From Peptoniphilus phoceensis (GTDB lineage: Bacteria; Bacillota; Clostridia; Tissierellales; Peptoniphilaceae), in assembly GCF_001517665.2 (NCBI RefSeq), contig NZ_LN999807.1, positions 85,788 to 149,787 of the forward strand: a stretch of DNA of 64,000 nucleotides, written 5' to 3'. The translations under genes were made by a program, and so were the position numbers. Positions 26,781 to 56,558 of the stretch are shown here, piece after piece. The notes under the pieces are model-generated. The model had not been told where the DNA came from, searched no databases, and saw nothing but the letters and a program-made list of their open reading frames with translations. The first letter of the stretch is position 1, and the number at the start of each line of letters is the position of its first letter.

Positions 26781-28160
26781 CTATTTGACAAATCCTTTTC
26801 TCTTAACCCATCCATCTATATTTTTTTGAGGTGCTCTCTCAAGAGAAAGTTGACCCTTCAAAACATTTTTAGTAATAGTAGAACCTGCGGCAATATAAGC
26901 CTCATCTTCTACTTCAATTGGAGCAACTAAATTAGAATTAGAACCAATAAAGGCATTATCCCCAACTTTTGATCTAAATTTTTCTCTTCCATTGTAGTTT
27001 ACAAAAACTACTCCACAACCAATATTGACACCACTTCCAACATCAGCATCACCAATATAAGCAAGATGACTCATCTTGGAACCATTTCCCACATTGGAAT
27101 TTTTAACTTCAACAAAATTTCCAATTTTACAATTTTCCCCAACATTAGAATTTGGTCTAAGGTGGGCATAAGGTCCAACAGTAGTGCCTTTTCCTATTGA
27201 AGAATCTTCAATTTCAGATGACCTAATAATTACATCTTCTCCAATTGTTGAATTTTTAATTGTGGAAGAATAAATTTCTGCGCCTTCTTTTATTACAGAA
27301 TTTCTGTCAATGCGAGTGCCAGGATAAATCATGACATCTCTATCTATTTTTGCGCCATATTCAATATAAGTGGACTTAGGATCAATTATCCCAACACCAT
27401 TTATCATATACTCTTTATTTATTTTCTTTTGCAAAATTTCTGCTGCAACAGATAATTCATATCTTGAATTAACACCTAGAATTTCTCTAGTATCTCTCAG
27501 TTTAAAGGAATCAACTTTTTTGCCTTCCTTAACTAAAATACCAAGAGTATCAGTTATATACATTTCATTTGCTGCATTGTCTGTATCAATTTTTGAAAGA
27601 GCTGACTTTAGTGAAGAACCCTTGAAAGCAAAAATACCAGAATTAATTTCACGAATTAACTTTTGTTTTTCGCTGGCGTCCTTTTCTTCTACTATTGCAA
27701 CTACATTTGCATTTTCATCTCTTACAATTCGTCCATAATTTGTAGGATCCTTCATATCAGCAGATAAAACTGTTATATCATTATTTCTCTCTTCGTGATA
27801 TTTCAAAAAGCAAGAAATAGTTGAGCTAGAAATAATTGGAGTATCTCCATTTAAAATTATAACTGTATCTTCATCTTCTATTTTATCAAGAGCATTCATA
27901 ACAGCATATCCAGTACCATAGGGTACATTATCGCCAATTGGTTGCTCAATAAACTCTACATCTTTTTCTTCTTTAAAGGACTCACGCACTTTTTCCTTGT
28001 TGTGTCCCACAACCACAAGATTTTTCTCCACTTGAGAATGCTTGCAAGAATTTAGAACATAAAAAAGCATGGGTCTTCCAAGAATTTCATGAAGTACCTT
28101 TGGTTTTTTGGACTTCATTCTCGTTCCCTCTCCTGCTGCCAGGATAACTGAAACTTTCAT
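26781..28160 (-). CDS. glmU: Bifunctional GlcNAc-1-P uridyltransferase / glucosamine-1-P acetyltransferase
   Basis: 459 residues. N-terminal nucleotidyltransferase with [21 protein letters not shown]-terminal left-handed beta-helix made of hexapeptide repeats (about residues 255-450), with the acetyltransferase His region at [20 protein letters not shown]. It makes UDP-GlcNAc for the cell wall. It is the first gene of the five-gene operon and has its own promoter. Confidence 0.97.
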
Positions 28161-28188
28161 AAAACACCTCTTTTTATTTACTTCTTAC

Positions 28189-28218
28189 ATTATAACTAAG
28201 ATTCACACTCATATTCAA
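28189..28218 (-). promoter_or_regulatory. Promoter of the glmU operon
   Basis: TTGAAT (28213-28218), 18-bp spacer, TATAAT (28189-28194) on the minus strand, 29 bp before glmU. Confidence 0.75.
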
Positions 28219-28318
28219 GAATATTTCATAATTAATTTAAAAATTAGATTTAGAATATCAAAAATATATTTTTTATTTAATAAGATACTTTTTAGTATTA
28301 AATTTTTCTTTTATTATT

Positions 28319-28541
28319 GGAGGGGCTTATACCCATTTGGGCACGAGTGGGCATCGTGAGGCCCCGCTTGTGCCCTATGGGTATGCCCCTCCAAACTACC
28401 CCCTTCACCCCACGTACGTTGAGTCCAAAAAAATCGGTTATGCTAAATTTTCAAAACTCATTCGCTTCGCGAATTCAAACAGTTGAAAATTTTTAACGCA
28501 TAACCGATTTTTTTGCTTATTTTATACACTAGATTAGCTCA
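28319..28541 (+). repeat. Intergenic modular repeat E1 (type A)
   Basis: Three parts. First a GC-rich imperfect hairpin 28319-28392 (GGAGGGGC at one end, GCCCCTCC at the other, with CCCAT/ATGGG inside). Then a linker with CTACCCCC and CACG. Then a long AT-rich palindrome 28427-28514, whose outer arm AAAAAAATCGGTTATGC is perfectly complementary over 17 bp, whose inner arm ATTTTCAA pairs over 8 bp or more, and whose loop contains a TTCG-capped mini-hairpin and AAACAG. The tail ACACTAGATTAGCTCACTA recurs in E3. Related copies: 33819-33992 and 45755-45945. Confidence 0.85.
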
Positions 28542-28596
28542 CTACATAATAAAAAATAAAAAGCTTTTATCCTTAAATACTATTGTTTTTCATTAT

Positions 28597-28876
28597 GAGC
28601 TTGGCAAGTGTGCTCCAGCTCATTGAAGTCTTATGAAGATATAGACTTGGCAAATATCCAGCAAGTTTATAAGGCAGTAAGCAAAAAGTTTGAAGGCGTT
28701 AAAAAATTTTGCTGTTTGAGCGAAGCGAGTTCAAAATTTTAGCCGGAGAGCTTTTTGCGTATTACTGGGTCGGGCCCCTGCCAGGTCGTTTTGGGTGTTC
28801 AGGGGAGGTATGGAGGGGATAAGGGCGATTCGAAACTCCCTAAATCCCCTCCATAAATATGCTTTAAAGCCTCAAT
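28597..28876 (-). repeat. Intergenic modular repeat E2 (type B, minus orientation)
   Basis: Contains CAAGTGTGCTCCAGCTC, then AAGGCAGTAAGCAAAAAG, then a three-stem hairpin 28681-28758 (GCAAAAAG/CTTTTTGC, GGC/GCC, AAAATTTTG/CAAAATTTT) whose loop is CTGTTTGAGCGAAGCGAG. GGGCCCCTGCCAGGTCGTT and a GC-rich hairpin 28812-28852 (GGAGGGGAT/ATCCCCTCC) follow. The reverse complement is recognisable at 38390-38655 (E5). The gap between glmU and the cysK promoter is filled by E1 and E2; I see no gene in it. Confidence 0.85.
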
Positions 28877-28952
28877 CTTTAGAAAAACCTAAACATAATT
28901 TAATATCAAAAACTTTGCTTTACTTTTTAAAAAAGTAAATTTTTACTCTTCC

Positions 28953-28981
28953 TTGACAAAACAAAAAAATAATAGTATAGT
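28953..28981 (+). promoter_or_regulatory. Promoter of the cysK leader
   Basis: TTGACA (28953-28958), 17-bp spacer, TATAGT (28976-28981). It places the leader ORF about 20 nt after the predicted transcription start. Confidence 0.82.
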
Positions 28982-29007
28982 CGAAACATATTGATGAGGC
29001 GATAAAA

Positions 29008-29091
29008 ATGAAAAACTTAAATAACTTTAAAAATTTCACAAGCCAAGCATTCTGTTGTTGTTCTATAAAAAATTTTATAGGACTTATTTGA
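29008..29091 (+). CDS. Cysteine-rich leader peptide of the cysK-cysE operon
   Basis: A 27-codon ORF starting MKNLNNFKNF and containing QAFCCCSIKNF; the three consecutive Cys codons are TGT TGT TGT at 29053-29061, stop TGA 29089-29091. GAGG lies nine bases before ATG. It follows a consensus promoter and precedes an intrinsic terminator (29139-29169) and then cysK. The arrangement is that of a classical amino-acid attenuator: ribosome stalling at Cys codons when charged tRNA-Cys is scarce would change downstream folding. A hairpin CTATAAAA/TTTTATAG (29063-29080) sits right after the Cys codons, and ATTTTATA (29072-29079) can instead pair with 29117-29124. An opposite-strand ORF over 28920-29156 has no support. 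Confidence 0.75.
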   Translation: MKNLNNFKNFTSQAFCCCSIKNFIGLI

Positions 29092-29138
29092 ATGTGAATC
29101 AATATTTTAAAACTTTTATAAAATATTAAGAAAGATTT

Positions 29139-29169
29139 AAGAGTATATGATTTCATATACTCTTTTTTT
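29139..29169 (+). terminator. Attenuator terminator before cysK
   Basis: AAGAGTATATGA pairs perfectly with TCATATACTCTT around a tiny loop, followed by seven T (29163-29169). It lies 38 bp before the cysK start, after the Cys leader ORF, and ahead of the gene, so it must be conditional. Confidence 0.85.
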
Positions 29170-29207
29170 AATATCTATTTATTTAGAATTACTCAGGAGG
29201 AAAAAAA

Positions 29208-30098
29208 ATGACAAAATTATTAGAAACAGTTGGAAAATCAAAATTAGTGCAATTAGAAAATATTGGAAATGGAAAAATTTTCGTAAAAGTAGAAAAATCT
29301 AATCCAGCAGGATCTATTAAAGATAGAGCTGCCCTTTACATGATCAAGGGAGCAATAAAAGACGGATCTTTAAAAGAAGGTATGGAAATAGTTGAACCTA
29401 CAAGTGGCAACACTGGTATTGCTATTGCCATGATTGGTCGTGCCCTAGGTTATAAAGTTAATATTGTAATGCCTTCTTCTATGTCAGTTGAAAGAAGAAA
29501 TTTAATCGAAGCCTTTGGTGCAAACTTAATTTTAACTGGTGAAGGCGGAATGCAAGCTGCTGTGGATAAAGCAAAAGAACTTGTAGCTACAGGAAATTAC
29601 TTCATGCCAAACCAATTTGAAAATAAGTACAATGCCCTTGCTCACGAAGAAACAACTGGTCCAGAAATCTATGAAAATCTTAAAGACATCTCTGGATTTA
29701 TTGCAGGAATTGGAACTGGTGGAACTGTATCTGGTGTTGGAAGATATTTAAAAAATCAAGATGAAAAAATAAAAATTTGGGGACTTGAACCAGACGAATC
29801 ACCACTTCTTACAAGAGGAGAAGCTGGCGGACACAAGATCCAAGGAATTGGTGCAAACTTTATTCCAAAAGTTTTAGACACAAAAATTCTCGACAAAACT
29901 ATAAGAGTAAAATCAGATGAAGCTATCGAAATGGCTAAAAGACTTTCAAGAGAAGAAGGACTCCTTGTTGGTATATCTGCTGGAGCAAATGTTTTGGGTG
30001 CACTTAAAATGCAAGAGGAAATTGGTGGAAATATTGTAACAGTTGCACCTGACACAGCAGAAAGATATATGTCCACTGAATTATTTAAAAATGAATAA
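29208..30098 (+). CDS. cysK: Cysteine synthase (O-acetylserine sulfhydrylase)
   Basis: 296 residues, fold type II PLP enzyme. The PLP Lys is Lys38 in [29 protein letters not shown] is the substrate loop and [14 protein letters not shown] binds the PLP phosphate. It condenses O-acetylserine with sulfide to give cysteine. AGGAGG precedes ATG. It is followed with an 8-bp overlap by cysE, which supplies its substrate, and both lie behind the Cys attenuator. Confidence 0.96.
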
Positions 30099-30642
30099 TT
30101 TTTTTAAAAGACTAAAAGAATACGGGGAATTTATATTAAAAAAAGACCCTGCCTGTAAAAGTTTATTTGAAGCAATTTTCATGTATCCCATTGTATCTTG
30201 TATGATTAGTCACAGAATTGCTCACTACTTTTACGAAAAAAATCACACAAGTCTTGCCAGGTGGATTTCTCAAAGAGCCAGGAAAAAAACTGGTATAGAA
30301 ATTCATCCTGGTGCAAAAATTGGCAAAAATCTCTTTATTGACCACGGCATGGCTGTGGTCATTGGAGAAACTGCCGAAATTGGGGACAACTGTCACATGT
30401 ACCACAACATAACACTTGGTGGAACTGGAAATGAAAAAGAAAAGAAAAGACATCCCACAGTTGGAAACAATGTAATAATTGGAACTGGTGCAACAGTTCT
30501 TGGTCCAGTTTTTATTGGTGAAGGGGCAAAGATAGGAGCAGGTGCTCTTGTACTAACAGACATCCCTGCCAACTCAACTGCTGTTGGTGTGCCAGCAAAA
30601 GTCGTAAAATTCCACGATCCCAGTGAGAATAAGTTCCACTAA
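30091..30642 (+). CDS. cysE: Serine O-acetyltransferase
   Basis: 183 residues. N-terminal helical region ending [20 protein letters not shown], then a left-handed beta-helix with [20 protein letters not shown] and [20 protein letters not shown], the CysE acetyl-CoA and catalytic His segment. The short N-terminus is of the Firmicute CysE type. I place the start at ATG 30091, which overlaps the cysK stop by 8 bp, with no separate ribosome site, so translation should be coupled. The C-terminus is short, so the usual tail that docks in CysK may be reduced. Confidence 0.94.
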
Positions 30643-30674: not shown

Positions 30675-31505
30675 ATGTTTAAAATAGGTCCCCATCTTTA
30701 TACATCAAAGGGCTATGCAAGTATGGGAAAAGATGCCCTTAAAATTTCTGCCACAACATTTCAATTTTTTTCACGTAATCCGAGAGGTTCCAAGATAAAA
30801 AAGTTAGATGAAAAAGACATAAAAGACTTGATGAATATAGCAAGAGAAAATAAATTTGGACCACTTTTAGCACACGCCCCTTACACCTTAAATCCTTGTT
30901 CTTCAACAGAAAGTGTGAGAGAATTTGCAAATTTAGTGCTTGCAGAAGACCTTGAAAGACTAAAATATTTTAAAAACACTTACTACAATCTCCATCCCGG
31001 TTCTCACACAGGTCTTGGAAAACAGACTGCCATAGAAATTATTTCTCAAAAACTGAATTTAGTTTTAAGAGAAGAACAAGATACTATTGTCCTTTTAGAA
31101 ACTATGGCTGGCAAGGGAACAGAAGTTGGATCAAGATTTGAAGAAATTGGCAAAATAATAGAAAAAGTTAACTTAAAAGAAAAAGTTGGAGTGTGCCTCG
31201 ACACTTGTCACGTCCATGAAGCAGGTTACGACATAGTAAATGACTTAGAAGGTGTCCTTGAAGAATTTGACGAATTTATAAGTCTTGATAAACTTTATGC
31301 AATTCACTTAAACGACAGCAAAAATGAAAAAGGCGCTCACAAGGATAGGCACGAAGTTATTGGTCAAGGTAAAATTGGACTTCATGCAATAGAAAAAATT
31401 ATAAATCATGAAAAATTAAAAGACCTTCCCTTTTATCTAGAAACACCACAAGACTTAGAAGGTCACAAAAAAGAAATAGAATTATTAAAAAAACTCCGCA
31501 AATAA
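30675..31505 (+). CDS. nfo: Deoxyribonuclease IV (AP endonuclease family 2)
   Basis: 276 residues, TIM-barrel Nfo. Three-zinc ligands are visible in [10 protein letters not shown] (His), NLHPGSHTG (His), [14 protein letters not shown] (Glu), [13 protein letters not shown] (Asp, His), [20 protein letters not shown] (His, Asp, His) and FYLETPQ (Glu). It incises abasic sites in DNA repair. ATG follows AAGGAGG, 32 bp after cysE, so it is probably read with cysK-cysE. An IS3 remnant lies just downstream. Confidence 0.96.
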
Positions 31506-31944: not shown

Positions 31945-32545
31945 TTTTGCTTTTGTTCACTTACTCACCCGTAAACGGGTCTACAAATTCTTTAATGCTT
32001 ATTTGATCTGCCATGTAATCTTCTTTTAATTGATTTTTTATATATTCTTGTATCTTTTTCGCATTCTTCCCTGCTGTGTCTACGTAATATCCTCTACACC
32101 AAAAGTGTCTATTCCCATATTTGTATTTTAAATTCGCATGCCTATCAAATATTATTAGACTACTTTTCCCTTTTAAATACCCATTATTTGGGATATGCTA
32201 TATTTTGGTGGAATCTCCAGCAACATGTGAATATGGTCTGGACAACATTCTGCTTCTATTATATTTATTCCTTTTCTATCACATAGATCCCTTAATATTT
32301 TTCCTATATCTTGTTTTAATCTTCCATATATTACTTGTCTCCTGTACTTTGGAGCAAACACTATATGATATTTACAATTCCAAGCTGTATATGATAGACT
32401 GTTCTTATCCATTCAGGATACCTCCCTTTTCTATTTATGCTACTGCCAGTAACATATATAGTTTATCACGGGGAGGTTTTTTGCTTGAAGCTAAAGCTTT
32501 TTTCCTACCACCAGCATAGCTGGTGGTTTATTCATGCTAAAGGGT
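31945..32545. mobile_element. IS200-type insertion sequence, inactivated
   Basis: A tnpA pseudogene on the minus strand with subterminal hairpins: CCACCAGC/GCTGGTGG at 32510-32528 upstream of the gene and ACCCGT/ACGGGT near its end (31968-31981). No tnpB is present. Limits are approximate. Confidence 0.7.
31961..32412 (-). pseudogene. tnpA: IS200-like Y1 transposase, frameshifted
   Basis: The first 79 codons read SLSYTAWNCKYHIVFAPKYR through CCPDHIHMLLEIPP, which holds the HUH pair (HIH). At about 32173 one base is missing in the run giving QIMGI-stop, where related proteins read QIMGYLKGKS. In the next frame the rest continues as KGKSSLIIFDRHANLKY, HFWCRGYYVDTAGKN and IQEYIKNQLKED with the catalytic Tyr, ending at TAA 31961. 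A single indel has killed the gene, so the inactivation looks recent. Confidence 0.9.
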
Positions 32546-33177: not shown

Positions 33178-33429
33178 ATGAACAAAATTAATTTAACTGT
33201 AAGTGTGGATAATGATGACAAGGAATCTTTTAATGCTTTGGTTTCTGAACTTGGTCTTAATATTTCTGCCGCTATAAATATGTTTATCAAACAGTCTATT
33301 AGAAATCAGGCTTTACCTTTGGATTTATCTTTAAATAAAAAGGAAAAAGGAAATACAAAGAGTTTAGAAAAAATTTCTGATGAAATTATGGATAAGTACG
33401 ATATAGCATTTAAGGAATTGGCAAAATGA
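33178..33429 (+). CDS. RelB/DinJ-family antitoxin
   Basis: 83 residues with a ribbon-helix-helix N-terminus: INLTVSVDNDDKESFNALVSELGLNISAAINMFIKQSI matches RelB/DinJ, given here as its first and last parts only in outline. The C-terminal half (KSLEKISDEIMDKYDIAFKE) should wrap the toxin. AAAGGAGC lies seven bases upstream. Its stop overlaps the ATG of a Doc-type toxin gene, an unusual antitoxin-toxin pairing because Doc normally partners Phd; the toxin frame is broken. Confidence 0.85.
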   Translation: MNKINLTVSVDNDDKESFNALVSELGLNISAAINMFIKQSIRNQALPLDLSLNKKEKGNTKSLEKISDEIMDKYDIAFKELAK

Positions 33430-33806
33430 AATATGTAAGCCTTCAAGAAGTTATAATGCTTTAAGAAAAATTAATTTCTCGTTTTGGTGGATCCTATGGA
33501 ATCAGAGAAATAAATTTGCTTAAATCTTCAGTTGAAAATGTATTTCAAACTTATGATGGAGAAGAACTATATCCATCACACTTAGACAAAATTATACAAG
33601 TAACTTATTCCCTTATAGAAAATCATTGCTTTGTAGATGGCAATAAGAGAATTGGTGTTATGGTACTTTTGTATTTACTAAAAATAAATGAAATTAAACA
33701 TAATTTATCTAATGAAGATATTATAGAGATTGGGTTAAAAGTGGCAAGTGGAGAGATGAGTAAGGAAGAGTTAAGGAAGTTTGTTGAGAATAAGGTTGAG
33801 GGTTGA
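33426..33806 (+). pseudogene. doc: Doc/Fic-type toxin with an in-frame stop at codon 13
   Basis: Reading from ATG 33426 gives MKYVSLQEVIML, then TAA (33462-33464), then EKLISRFGGSYGIREINLL and on to the Doc core NHCFVDGNKRIGVM, ending GLKVASGEMSKEELRKF at TGA 33806. Intact Doc proteins have a His or Gln at the stop position, so one substitution explains the break. The Fic motif HxFxDGNKR is kept apart from one extra residue spacing. Reinitiation at ATG 33516 would give a 96-residue core lacking the N-terminus. I call it a recently inactivated toxin. Confidence 0.88.
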
Positions 33807-33818
33807 AGTTTTTTATCT

Positions 33819-33992
33819 GGAGGGGCATATACCCATTTGGGCACGAGTGGGCGTCTTAATGCCCCGCTTGTGCCCTATGGGTGCTTGTGCCCTATGGGTG
33901 CTTGTGCCCTATGGGTGTGCTTGTGCCCTATGGGTATGCCCCTCCAGACCACCCCATTCACCCCACGCACTGGAAGTCCAAAAAAATCGGTT
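33819..33992 (+). repeat. Intergenic modular repeat E4 (type A, truncated, with 17-bp tandem expansion)
   Basis: GC-rich hairpin 33819-33945 related to E1. Inside it GCTTGTGCCCTATGGGT occurs four times (33866-33882, 33883-33899, 33900-33916, 33919-33935); E1 has a single copy. The linker continues to GTCCAAAAAAATCGGTT, where similarity to E1 stops and a fragment of another doc gene begins. Confidence 0.85.
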
Positions 33993-45461: not shown

Positions 45462-45477
45462 CATGAAAGTTTAAATC

Positions 45478-45580
45478 ATTCTCTCATCCAGACTTTACTG
45501 TCGGTATTGGAATTGCACCAATTCAGCTTTCGCTCGCGGACTTTACCGCCGGTTGGGATTTGCACCCTTCCCTGAAGATT
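45478..45580 (-). ncRNA. FMN riboswitch (RFN element)
   Basis: Minus strand shows AGGGAAGGGTGCAAATCCC, ACCGGCGGTAAAGTCCGCGA, GGTGCAATTCC, CCGACAGTAAAGTCTGGATG and AGAG in order: the full RFN element. It should stop ribU transcription when FMN is plentiful. Confidence 0.97.
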
Positions 45581-45607
45581 TAAAATTATTATTTATTTCT
45601 TAATTTA

Positions 45608-56337: not shown

Positions 56338-56556
56338 TAAAAAAGCGTCCTCCATCCCTAAGGACGAAAGACGCGGTACCACCTTAATTTTTATTTTTCA
56401 ATAAACTCTCTATAATCTTTAACGAGATAAGTCGTCTTTGGCTACTATTTTCACCAAAGAAGCAAAAAAGCTACAATTGTAAAATTTATAAAAACTTTTC
56501 AGCAAACAGTTTCTCTCTAAATATAAATTTTTACAATCCTCTTTTTTATTGCTTGT
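56338..56556 (-). ncRNA. T-box leader of valS, specifier GUA (Val)
   Basis: The T-box sequence AAGGTGGTACCGCG lies at 56372-56385 on the minus strand, followed by a GCGTC terminator stem (GTCCT/AGGAC) and T-run at 56338-56375. The base of stem I pairs AAGCAA with TTGCTT (after a T-run); above it TTGTAAAA pairs with TTTTACAA. Between those helices on the 3' side lies GTA (56472-56474), the Val specifier. The leader starts directly after the stop of the GGADGPT gene, and I see no separate promoter. Confidence 0.93.
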
Positions 56557-56558
56557 TT

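Follow-up and report, generated by a model that had tools for sequence, protein, structure and literature searches.

Which signal governs the cysK-cysE operon of Peptoniphilus phoceensis, and what kind of RNA reads it, are the questions raised by the DNA upstream of cysK. The window analysed here, the whole stretch of 64,000 nucleotides, belongs to a genome of 1.74 Mb, and the original prediction had proposed that a short open reading frame (ORF) with a run of cysteine codons acts there as an attenuator of cysK-cysE. In this study, the leader was analysed by sequence, by RNA folding and by comparison with relatives, and it very probably controls cysK-cysE by ribosome-mediated transcription attenuation, with Cys-tRNA(Cys) as the signal. 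The promoter, the 27-codon ORF, the three TGT codons, the hairpin with seven T and cysK that had been described were each found in the sequence in their places. The features of the locus are as follows:

28953..28981, plus strand: sigma-70-type promoter, TTGACA-17-TATAGT, from the sequence (11 of 12 consensus matches)
29008..29091, plus strand: leader ORF, 27 codons, MKNLNNFKNFTSQAFCCCSIKNFIGLI followed by TGA, from the sequence, relatives and shuffles
29047..29052, plus strand: region 1, GCATTC, from the minimum-free-energy (MFE) fold; pairs with 29090-29095 and encloses the Cys codons
29053..29061, plus strand: regulatory Cys codons TGT TGT TGT, from the sequence and relatives
29060..29083, plus strand: inner hairpin GTTCTATAAA/TTTATAGGAC, from the MFE fold; overlaps the third Cys codon
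29090..29108, plus strand: region 2, of which 29090-29095 pairs with region 1 and 29092-29108 is the antiterminator strand
29139..29164, plus strand: terminator hairpin, from the fold and relatives; six pairs changed on both sides (16 leaders)
29163..29169, plus strand: T run of the intrinsic terminator, seven T, from the sequence
29208..30098, plus strand: cysK, cysteine synthase A (NCBIfam TIGR01139, 375.5 bits, cut-off 350.95)
30091..30642, plus strand: cysE, serine O-acetyltransferase (NCBIfam NF041874 and TIGR01172, above cut-off)
30675..31505, plus strand: nfo, deoxyribonuclease IV (TIGR00587, 270.3 bits, cut-off 129.65)

The two promoter hexamers (TTGACA at 28953-28958 and TATAGT at 28976-28981) are separated by a 17-base spacer and formed the top promoter-like match within 28160-29260, and most close relatives carry the same hexamers in the alignment. 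The scan found 7 promoter-like sites in this interval versus 4.6 in shuffled sequences and thus by itself proves nothing. The nearest long ORF 5' of the leader (26781-28160) lies on the opposite strand, and cysK is thus the gene that the promoter, leader and terminator most likely serve. The start of cysE was set by us at an ATG within the end of cysK, so that the two genes overlap, and the amino acid read by the leader codons is the product of cysK and cysE as identified by curated models. Among named relatives, Peptoniphilus timonensis JC401 is the closest at this locus, with a CysK 96% identical, and G012 is the genome marked as the same species as the source. Elsewhere, the window contains an FMN riboswitch (45471-45583, minus strand) that scored above the Rfam gathering score, a fragment of an IS200-like Y1 transposase (32173-32412, minus strand; profile positions 2-70 of 121), and a likely toxin-antitoxin pair made up of a RelB-type antitoxin and, after it, a short Fic/Doc protein (33178-33806, plus strand); directly past the Fic gene, a 17-base unit is present in four tandem copies (33866-33935).

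The leader ORF is preceded by a Shine-Dalgarno (SD) sequence, GAGG, at 28996-28999. When the 230-nt stretch that precedes cysK was subjected to dinucleotide shuffling, an ATG-initiated ORF of 8-50 aa containing CCC appeared once in 20000 trials. When the ATG was chosen by SD strength with the frame ignored, it shared the frame of the Cys codons in all 17 leaders identified in this study, a test in which six of the 17 had one candidate ATG and close relatives are not independent; the start-to-Cys-codon distances were 45, 42, 39 or 36 nt. The six leaders that, in distance or sequence, diverge most from the source leader (P. lacydonensis, G008, G006, G009, G083 and G129) all gave this result. The Cys codons are TGT TGC TGT in G083, and two, followed by Pro, in G006 and G009. 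Outside the part that encodes the stems, the leader peptide varies between genera, and the stop codon comes earlier in six leaders (P. grossensis, G008, G006, G009, G083 and G129). The SD sequence and the conservation of the frame suggest that the leader ORF is translated.

The CysK search covered 14 genomes of the genus and 130 of the family, the family giving 87 matches in 85 genomes; upstream DNA was read at 86 of the 87, with G045, whose match lies 241 bases from a contig end, left out. The leader was found in 17 genomes and always ahead of cysK, namely in 14 of 14 genus genomes and in one genome from each of three other genera (G098, G083 and G129). The ORF, the Cys run and the terminator are kept in these 17 genomes, with no loss of any of the three within the genus, which supports the proposal of the original prediction that a Cys-codon attenuator controls cysK-cysE. 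The CysK proteins of all 17 leader genomes are among the 20 that are at least 68% identical to the source CysK, and no Cys-run leader ORF was found upstream of the other three (G119, G121 and G067). A covariance model of 16 leaders, from which G129 had been withheld, recovered the withheld copy at E 3.5e-5. This model gave one match with E <1e-4, before cysK, in each of the 17 genomes and no match at this threshold in the other 113 family genomes; the next best value was 0.0056.

Candidates beyond these 17 genomes were also considered. An order-wide scan of 249 genomes with stricter filters gave matches of E <=0.02 outside the 17 in G053, G187, G212 and G229, and those in G053, G187 and G212 were read and rejected as leaders. 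Twelve weak matches, located either in genomes other than the 17 or at sites other than cysK, were read in total, a set that left out those in G061 and G229 and the second one in G003, and none was leader-like; the weak match L168 (G053) has CC in one frame with no start codon between the flanking stops. ORFs containing CC occurred at two of 40 loci of the order outside the family (G223, which has a T-box, and G131) and in five family genomes (G018, G032, G053, G056 and G084), and all were judged incidental by eye, the five in the family being very short, far upstream or lacking an evident SD sequence. The Cys-run search took only CC or longer and would thus overlook leaders whose Cys codons are scattered. 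In G073, which belongs to another genus, an unrelated leader-like ORF, MCCCCCRTEF..., starts 211 nt before the CysK match at locus L149; it has an SD-like sequence, and a short hairpin that carries seven T lies ahead of cysK. As a single case, this ORF is only a candidate for an independent origin.

The leader RNA (28986-29175) folded better than 200 of 200 shuffles (z -4.69). In stem 1:2, formed by region 1 and the start of region 2, 99% of cells were paired across 16 leaders, with one double-change pair (C-G to G-C in G083). In the inner hairpin (29060-29069/29074-29083), 94.7% of cells were paired with zero double changes in the same number of leaders. A hairpin with a T-rich tail lies between the leader ORF and cysK in all 17 leaders, the tail being short in G083. 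The MFE fold also contains a helix of the leader 5' end (SD region) with region 2, which was not supported when partners were swapped between leaders (p=0.34). The alternative pairing that had been suggested as the antiterminator, 29072-29079 with 29117-29124, did not hold up, as it is not conserved: 58 of 128 cells were gapped, 82.9% of the lettered cells pair, no double changes were present, and one of the pairs is broken in 7 of 11 sequences.

The antiterminator identified here pairs 29092-29108 with 29140-29158, that is, with the 5' arm, the loop and the top of the 3' arm of the terminator. In the source leader, this helix has two bulges and an energy of -11.0 kcal/mol versus -12.0 for the terminator hairpin, and it shares four bases only (29092-29095) with stem 1:2. 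When region 2 was matched to the terminator, the best duplex used the same stretch of region 2 in each of the 17 leaders; in G008 it contains a large internal loop. A partner-swap test with 5040 permutations was applied to seven leaders (the source, P. lacydonensis, G008, G006, G009, G083 and G129), in which matched partners of region 2 and the whole terminator beat swapped ones (p=0.0012), with windows chosen after the sequences had been viewed and statistics that ignore phylogeny. By part of the terminator, region 2 gave p=0.0008 with the loop plus 3' half, p=0.0002 with the apex and p=0.025 with the 5' arm, and matched regions 1 and 2 likewise beat swapped partners (p=0.026). The p values of 17 control pairings ranged from 0.099 to 0.94. 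In 12 of these, parts of the terminator were set against other leader parts, downstream sequence or reversed sequence (0.099 to 0.91); in three, the terminator was set against region 1 (0.55 to 0.94), and in the last two, region 2 was set against other parts of the leader (0.39 and 0.79).

Covariation was also counted on a fixed alignment of 16 rows. The antiterminator had four double-change pairs, whereas four or more arose in 0 of 500 shuffles and slid versions of the helix had 1 to 3; 89.2% of its cells were paired, as against 24-67% in the slid versions. In its number of pair types, the antiterminator did not exceed shuffles on this alignment (137 of 500). The helix between region 2 and the terminator yields precise base-change predictions.

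These elements suggest the following mechanism, by which the leader would respond to cysteine. When Cys-tRNA is ample, the ribosome would reach the stop codon (29089-29091) and cover region 2, or alternatively it would be released and stem 1:2 would re-form; with region 2 covered or held in stem 1:2, the terminator would form and transcription would stop. When Cys-tRNA is scarce, the ribosome would wait at 29053, and its body would open stem 1:2. The freed region 2 (29092-29108) could then pair with 29140-29158 as it emerges, and the polymerase would read into cysK-cysE.

Ensemble energies were computed for three states of the RNA: free, or blocked as far as a ribosome that sits either at the first Cys codon or at the stop codon. 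When the transcript lacked the last 3 nt of the full terminator, a Cys stall shifted the balance toward the antiterminator in 16 of 17 leaders relative to no ribosome (the exception being G012) and in 14 of 17 relative to a stop-codon ribosome, with G008 marginal. The three exceptions to the latter (P. grossensis, G006 and G129) are all early-stop leaders, in which the modelled stop-codon ribosome does not favour the terminator. At this transcript length, the antiterminator was the stabler form under a Cys stall in five of the 17, the source genome not among them. With a complete 3' arm, the terminator beat the antiterminator in each of the 17 leaders whatever the ribosome state, and a Cys stall slightly favoured the terminator in the source (6.9 versus 6.5) and in G012; the equilibrium probability of the terminator under a Cys stall was at least 0.91 in 16 of 17 leaders and 0.53 in G098. 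The ribosome states could not be told apart by the upstream pairing of the terminator 5' arm. The arms are AU-rich, and the equilibrium pairing probabilities are therefore uninformative on ribosome states. Since the terminator dominates at equilibrium, static folding alone does not reveal the switch, which, if real, must be kinetic and decided during transcription, which is when classical attenuators are thought to decide.

The bases around the Cys codons are near-invariant in 15 leaders, beyond what coding needs, and they might be read instead as an aptamer, the GCATTCTGTTGT region of a metabolite riboswitch or a protein-binding RNA that recognizes cysteine, O-acetylserine or a regulator, with the ORF incidental. 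Against this reading, the start chosen by its SD sequence shares the frame of the Cys codons in every one of the 17 leaders, and the start distances differ by multiples of three. Moreover, G083 carries the synonymous codon TGC, G129 retains CCC amid changed surroundings, G073 has an unrelated Cys-run leader, and no Rfam family matched near its gathering score at the leader. The aptamer therefore appears improbable.

The same RNA switch could, in principle, be driven by the peptide rather than by the supply of Cys-tRNA, if the nascent AFCCCSI stalled the ribosome on another signal, such as redox state, a metal or a drug; the FCCCSI core is kept in 13 of 15 aligned leaders. The conserved neighbouring residues, however, come from codons whose bases form the RNA stems, and the motif becomes TLCCCSI in G083, FLCCCSM in G129 and AFCCPI in G006 and G009. 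The downstream genes, furthermore, make cysteine itself, and a sensor based on peptide arrest or cysteine chemistry is given a still smaller chance than the aptamer. A leader that is simply constitutive, with the ORF and terminator merely lowering basal expression and cysK controlled elsewhere, as by a CymR-like repressor, or not at all, is the least credible of these explanations, as the alternative helices covary and the codon run matches the gene product. Attenuation by a ribosome reading Cys-tRNA(Cys) stands as the preferred explanation.

The place of this attenuator is set off by the distribution of T-boxes, which sense tRNA directly. A covariance-model scan found no T-box (RF00230) at the source cysK leader, nor at the nine other leader loci scanned. 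A T-box was present upstream of cysK at 5 of the 81 family loci scanned (81 of the 86, five genus loci being left out), within about 420 nt in G053, G055, G099 and G100 and about 620 nt upstream in G056. In other families of the order, sampled at about one locus per genus, T-boxes were found upstream of cysK at 23 of 40 loci, and no convincing Cys-run leader was seen at these 40. Most family cysK loci have neither a T-box nor a Cys leader. T-box matches over the cut-off occurred somewhere in all 14 genus genomes, and 12 were counted in the source genome. The window itself has a T-box leader above the Rfam gathering score at 56357-56558 (minus strand), which shows that T-boxes occur elsewhere in the source genome.

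Given 5 of 81 family loci versus 23 of 40 order loci with T-boxes, the leader peptide seems to be placed where a T-box might be expected, and, judged from sequence comparison, it may have replaced, or may stand in for, the T-box at cysK in this lineage. At cysK-cysE, a Firmicutes lineage that has T-boxes elsewhere in its genomes appears to rely on leader-peptide attenuation to sense Cys-tRNA. A further proposal, put forward tentatively and held to be slightly less probable than its contrary, is that the antiterminator geometry is unusual, with a continuous region 2 that wraps the 5' arm, the loop and the top of the 3' arm of the terminator and covaries most with the loop plus 3' half, whereas in textbook attenuators the partner is the 5' arm, and that Cys leaders arose at least twice in the family (once as the leader of the 17 genomes and once as the unrelated MCCCCC leader of G073), replacing a Cys T-box. 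With such a wrap-around antiterminator, if it is real, the leader would decide later than those of trp or his do. A covariation-supported leader at an operon that has a T-box in relatives makes the exchange of sensors directly testable.

The original prediction had also regarded a leader of this logic in a low-GC anaerobe as unreported. No Cys leader in Firmicutes or Peptoniphilus was found among the literature matches listed, which agrees with this view, with the subscription literature mostly outside their scope and novelty therefore unproven; the logic itself has precedents, both in Cys attenuators with terminators (uORFC-8-2, PMC8632094) and in the His leaders of Firmicutes (PMC2965389, PMC9413887). 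In the available parts of the latter two reports, leader-peptide attenuators for histidine genes combine a codon-run peptide with a terminator where T-boxes are usual, and an antiterminator is predicted in PMC9413887, all as in the Peptoniphilus leader; they differ in serving histidine genes and in belonging to other lineages. In the part of PMC9413887 that was available, Peptoniphilus is named once, in a table of HisR-controlled operons. The cysK-cysE operon of C. perfringens is under a Cys-specific T-box according to the accessible text of PMC2940859, and thus shares with the Peptoniphilus leader the operon, Cys-tRNA charging as the signal and premature termination, but has no leader ORF.

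Leader ORFs with Cys runs have been predicted before cys genes of mycobacteria and other actinobacteria (PMC1262725). As far as the available portion of that report describes them, they have no conserved terminator hairpins, whereas the Peptoniphilus leader has an intrinsic terminator. The polycysteine ORFs of mycobacteria are called leaderless in the title of Canestrari 2020 (cited in PMC13236596); by that title, they contrast with the Peptoniphilus leader, which has an SD sequence (28996-28999) and a terminator (29139-29169). The nearest system in logic, going by the available part of PMC8632094, is uORFC-8-2, an upstream ORF with tandem Cys codons before cysS in Rhodobacterales. Like the Peptoniphilus leader, it is described with Cys codons inside the first stem, an intrinsic terminator and proposed stalling at the Cys codons; unlike it, uORFC-8-2 precedes cysS, belongs to another phylum and has two Cys codons, the two being compared by description. 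In conclusion, the attenuation logic appears familiar, while the RNA family, which is set apart from uORFC-8-2 by description, and its place in this lineage appear new.
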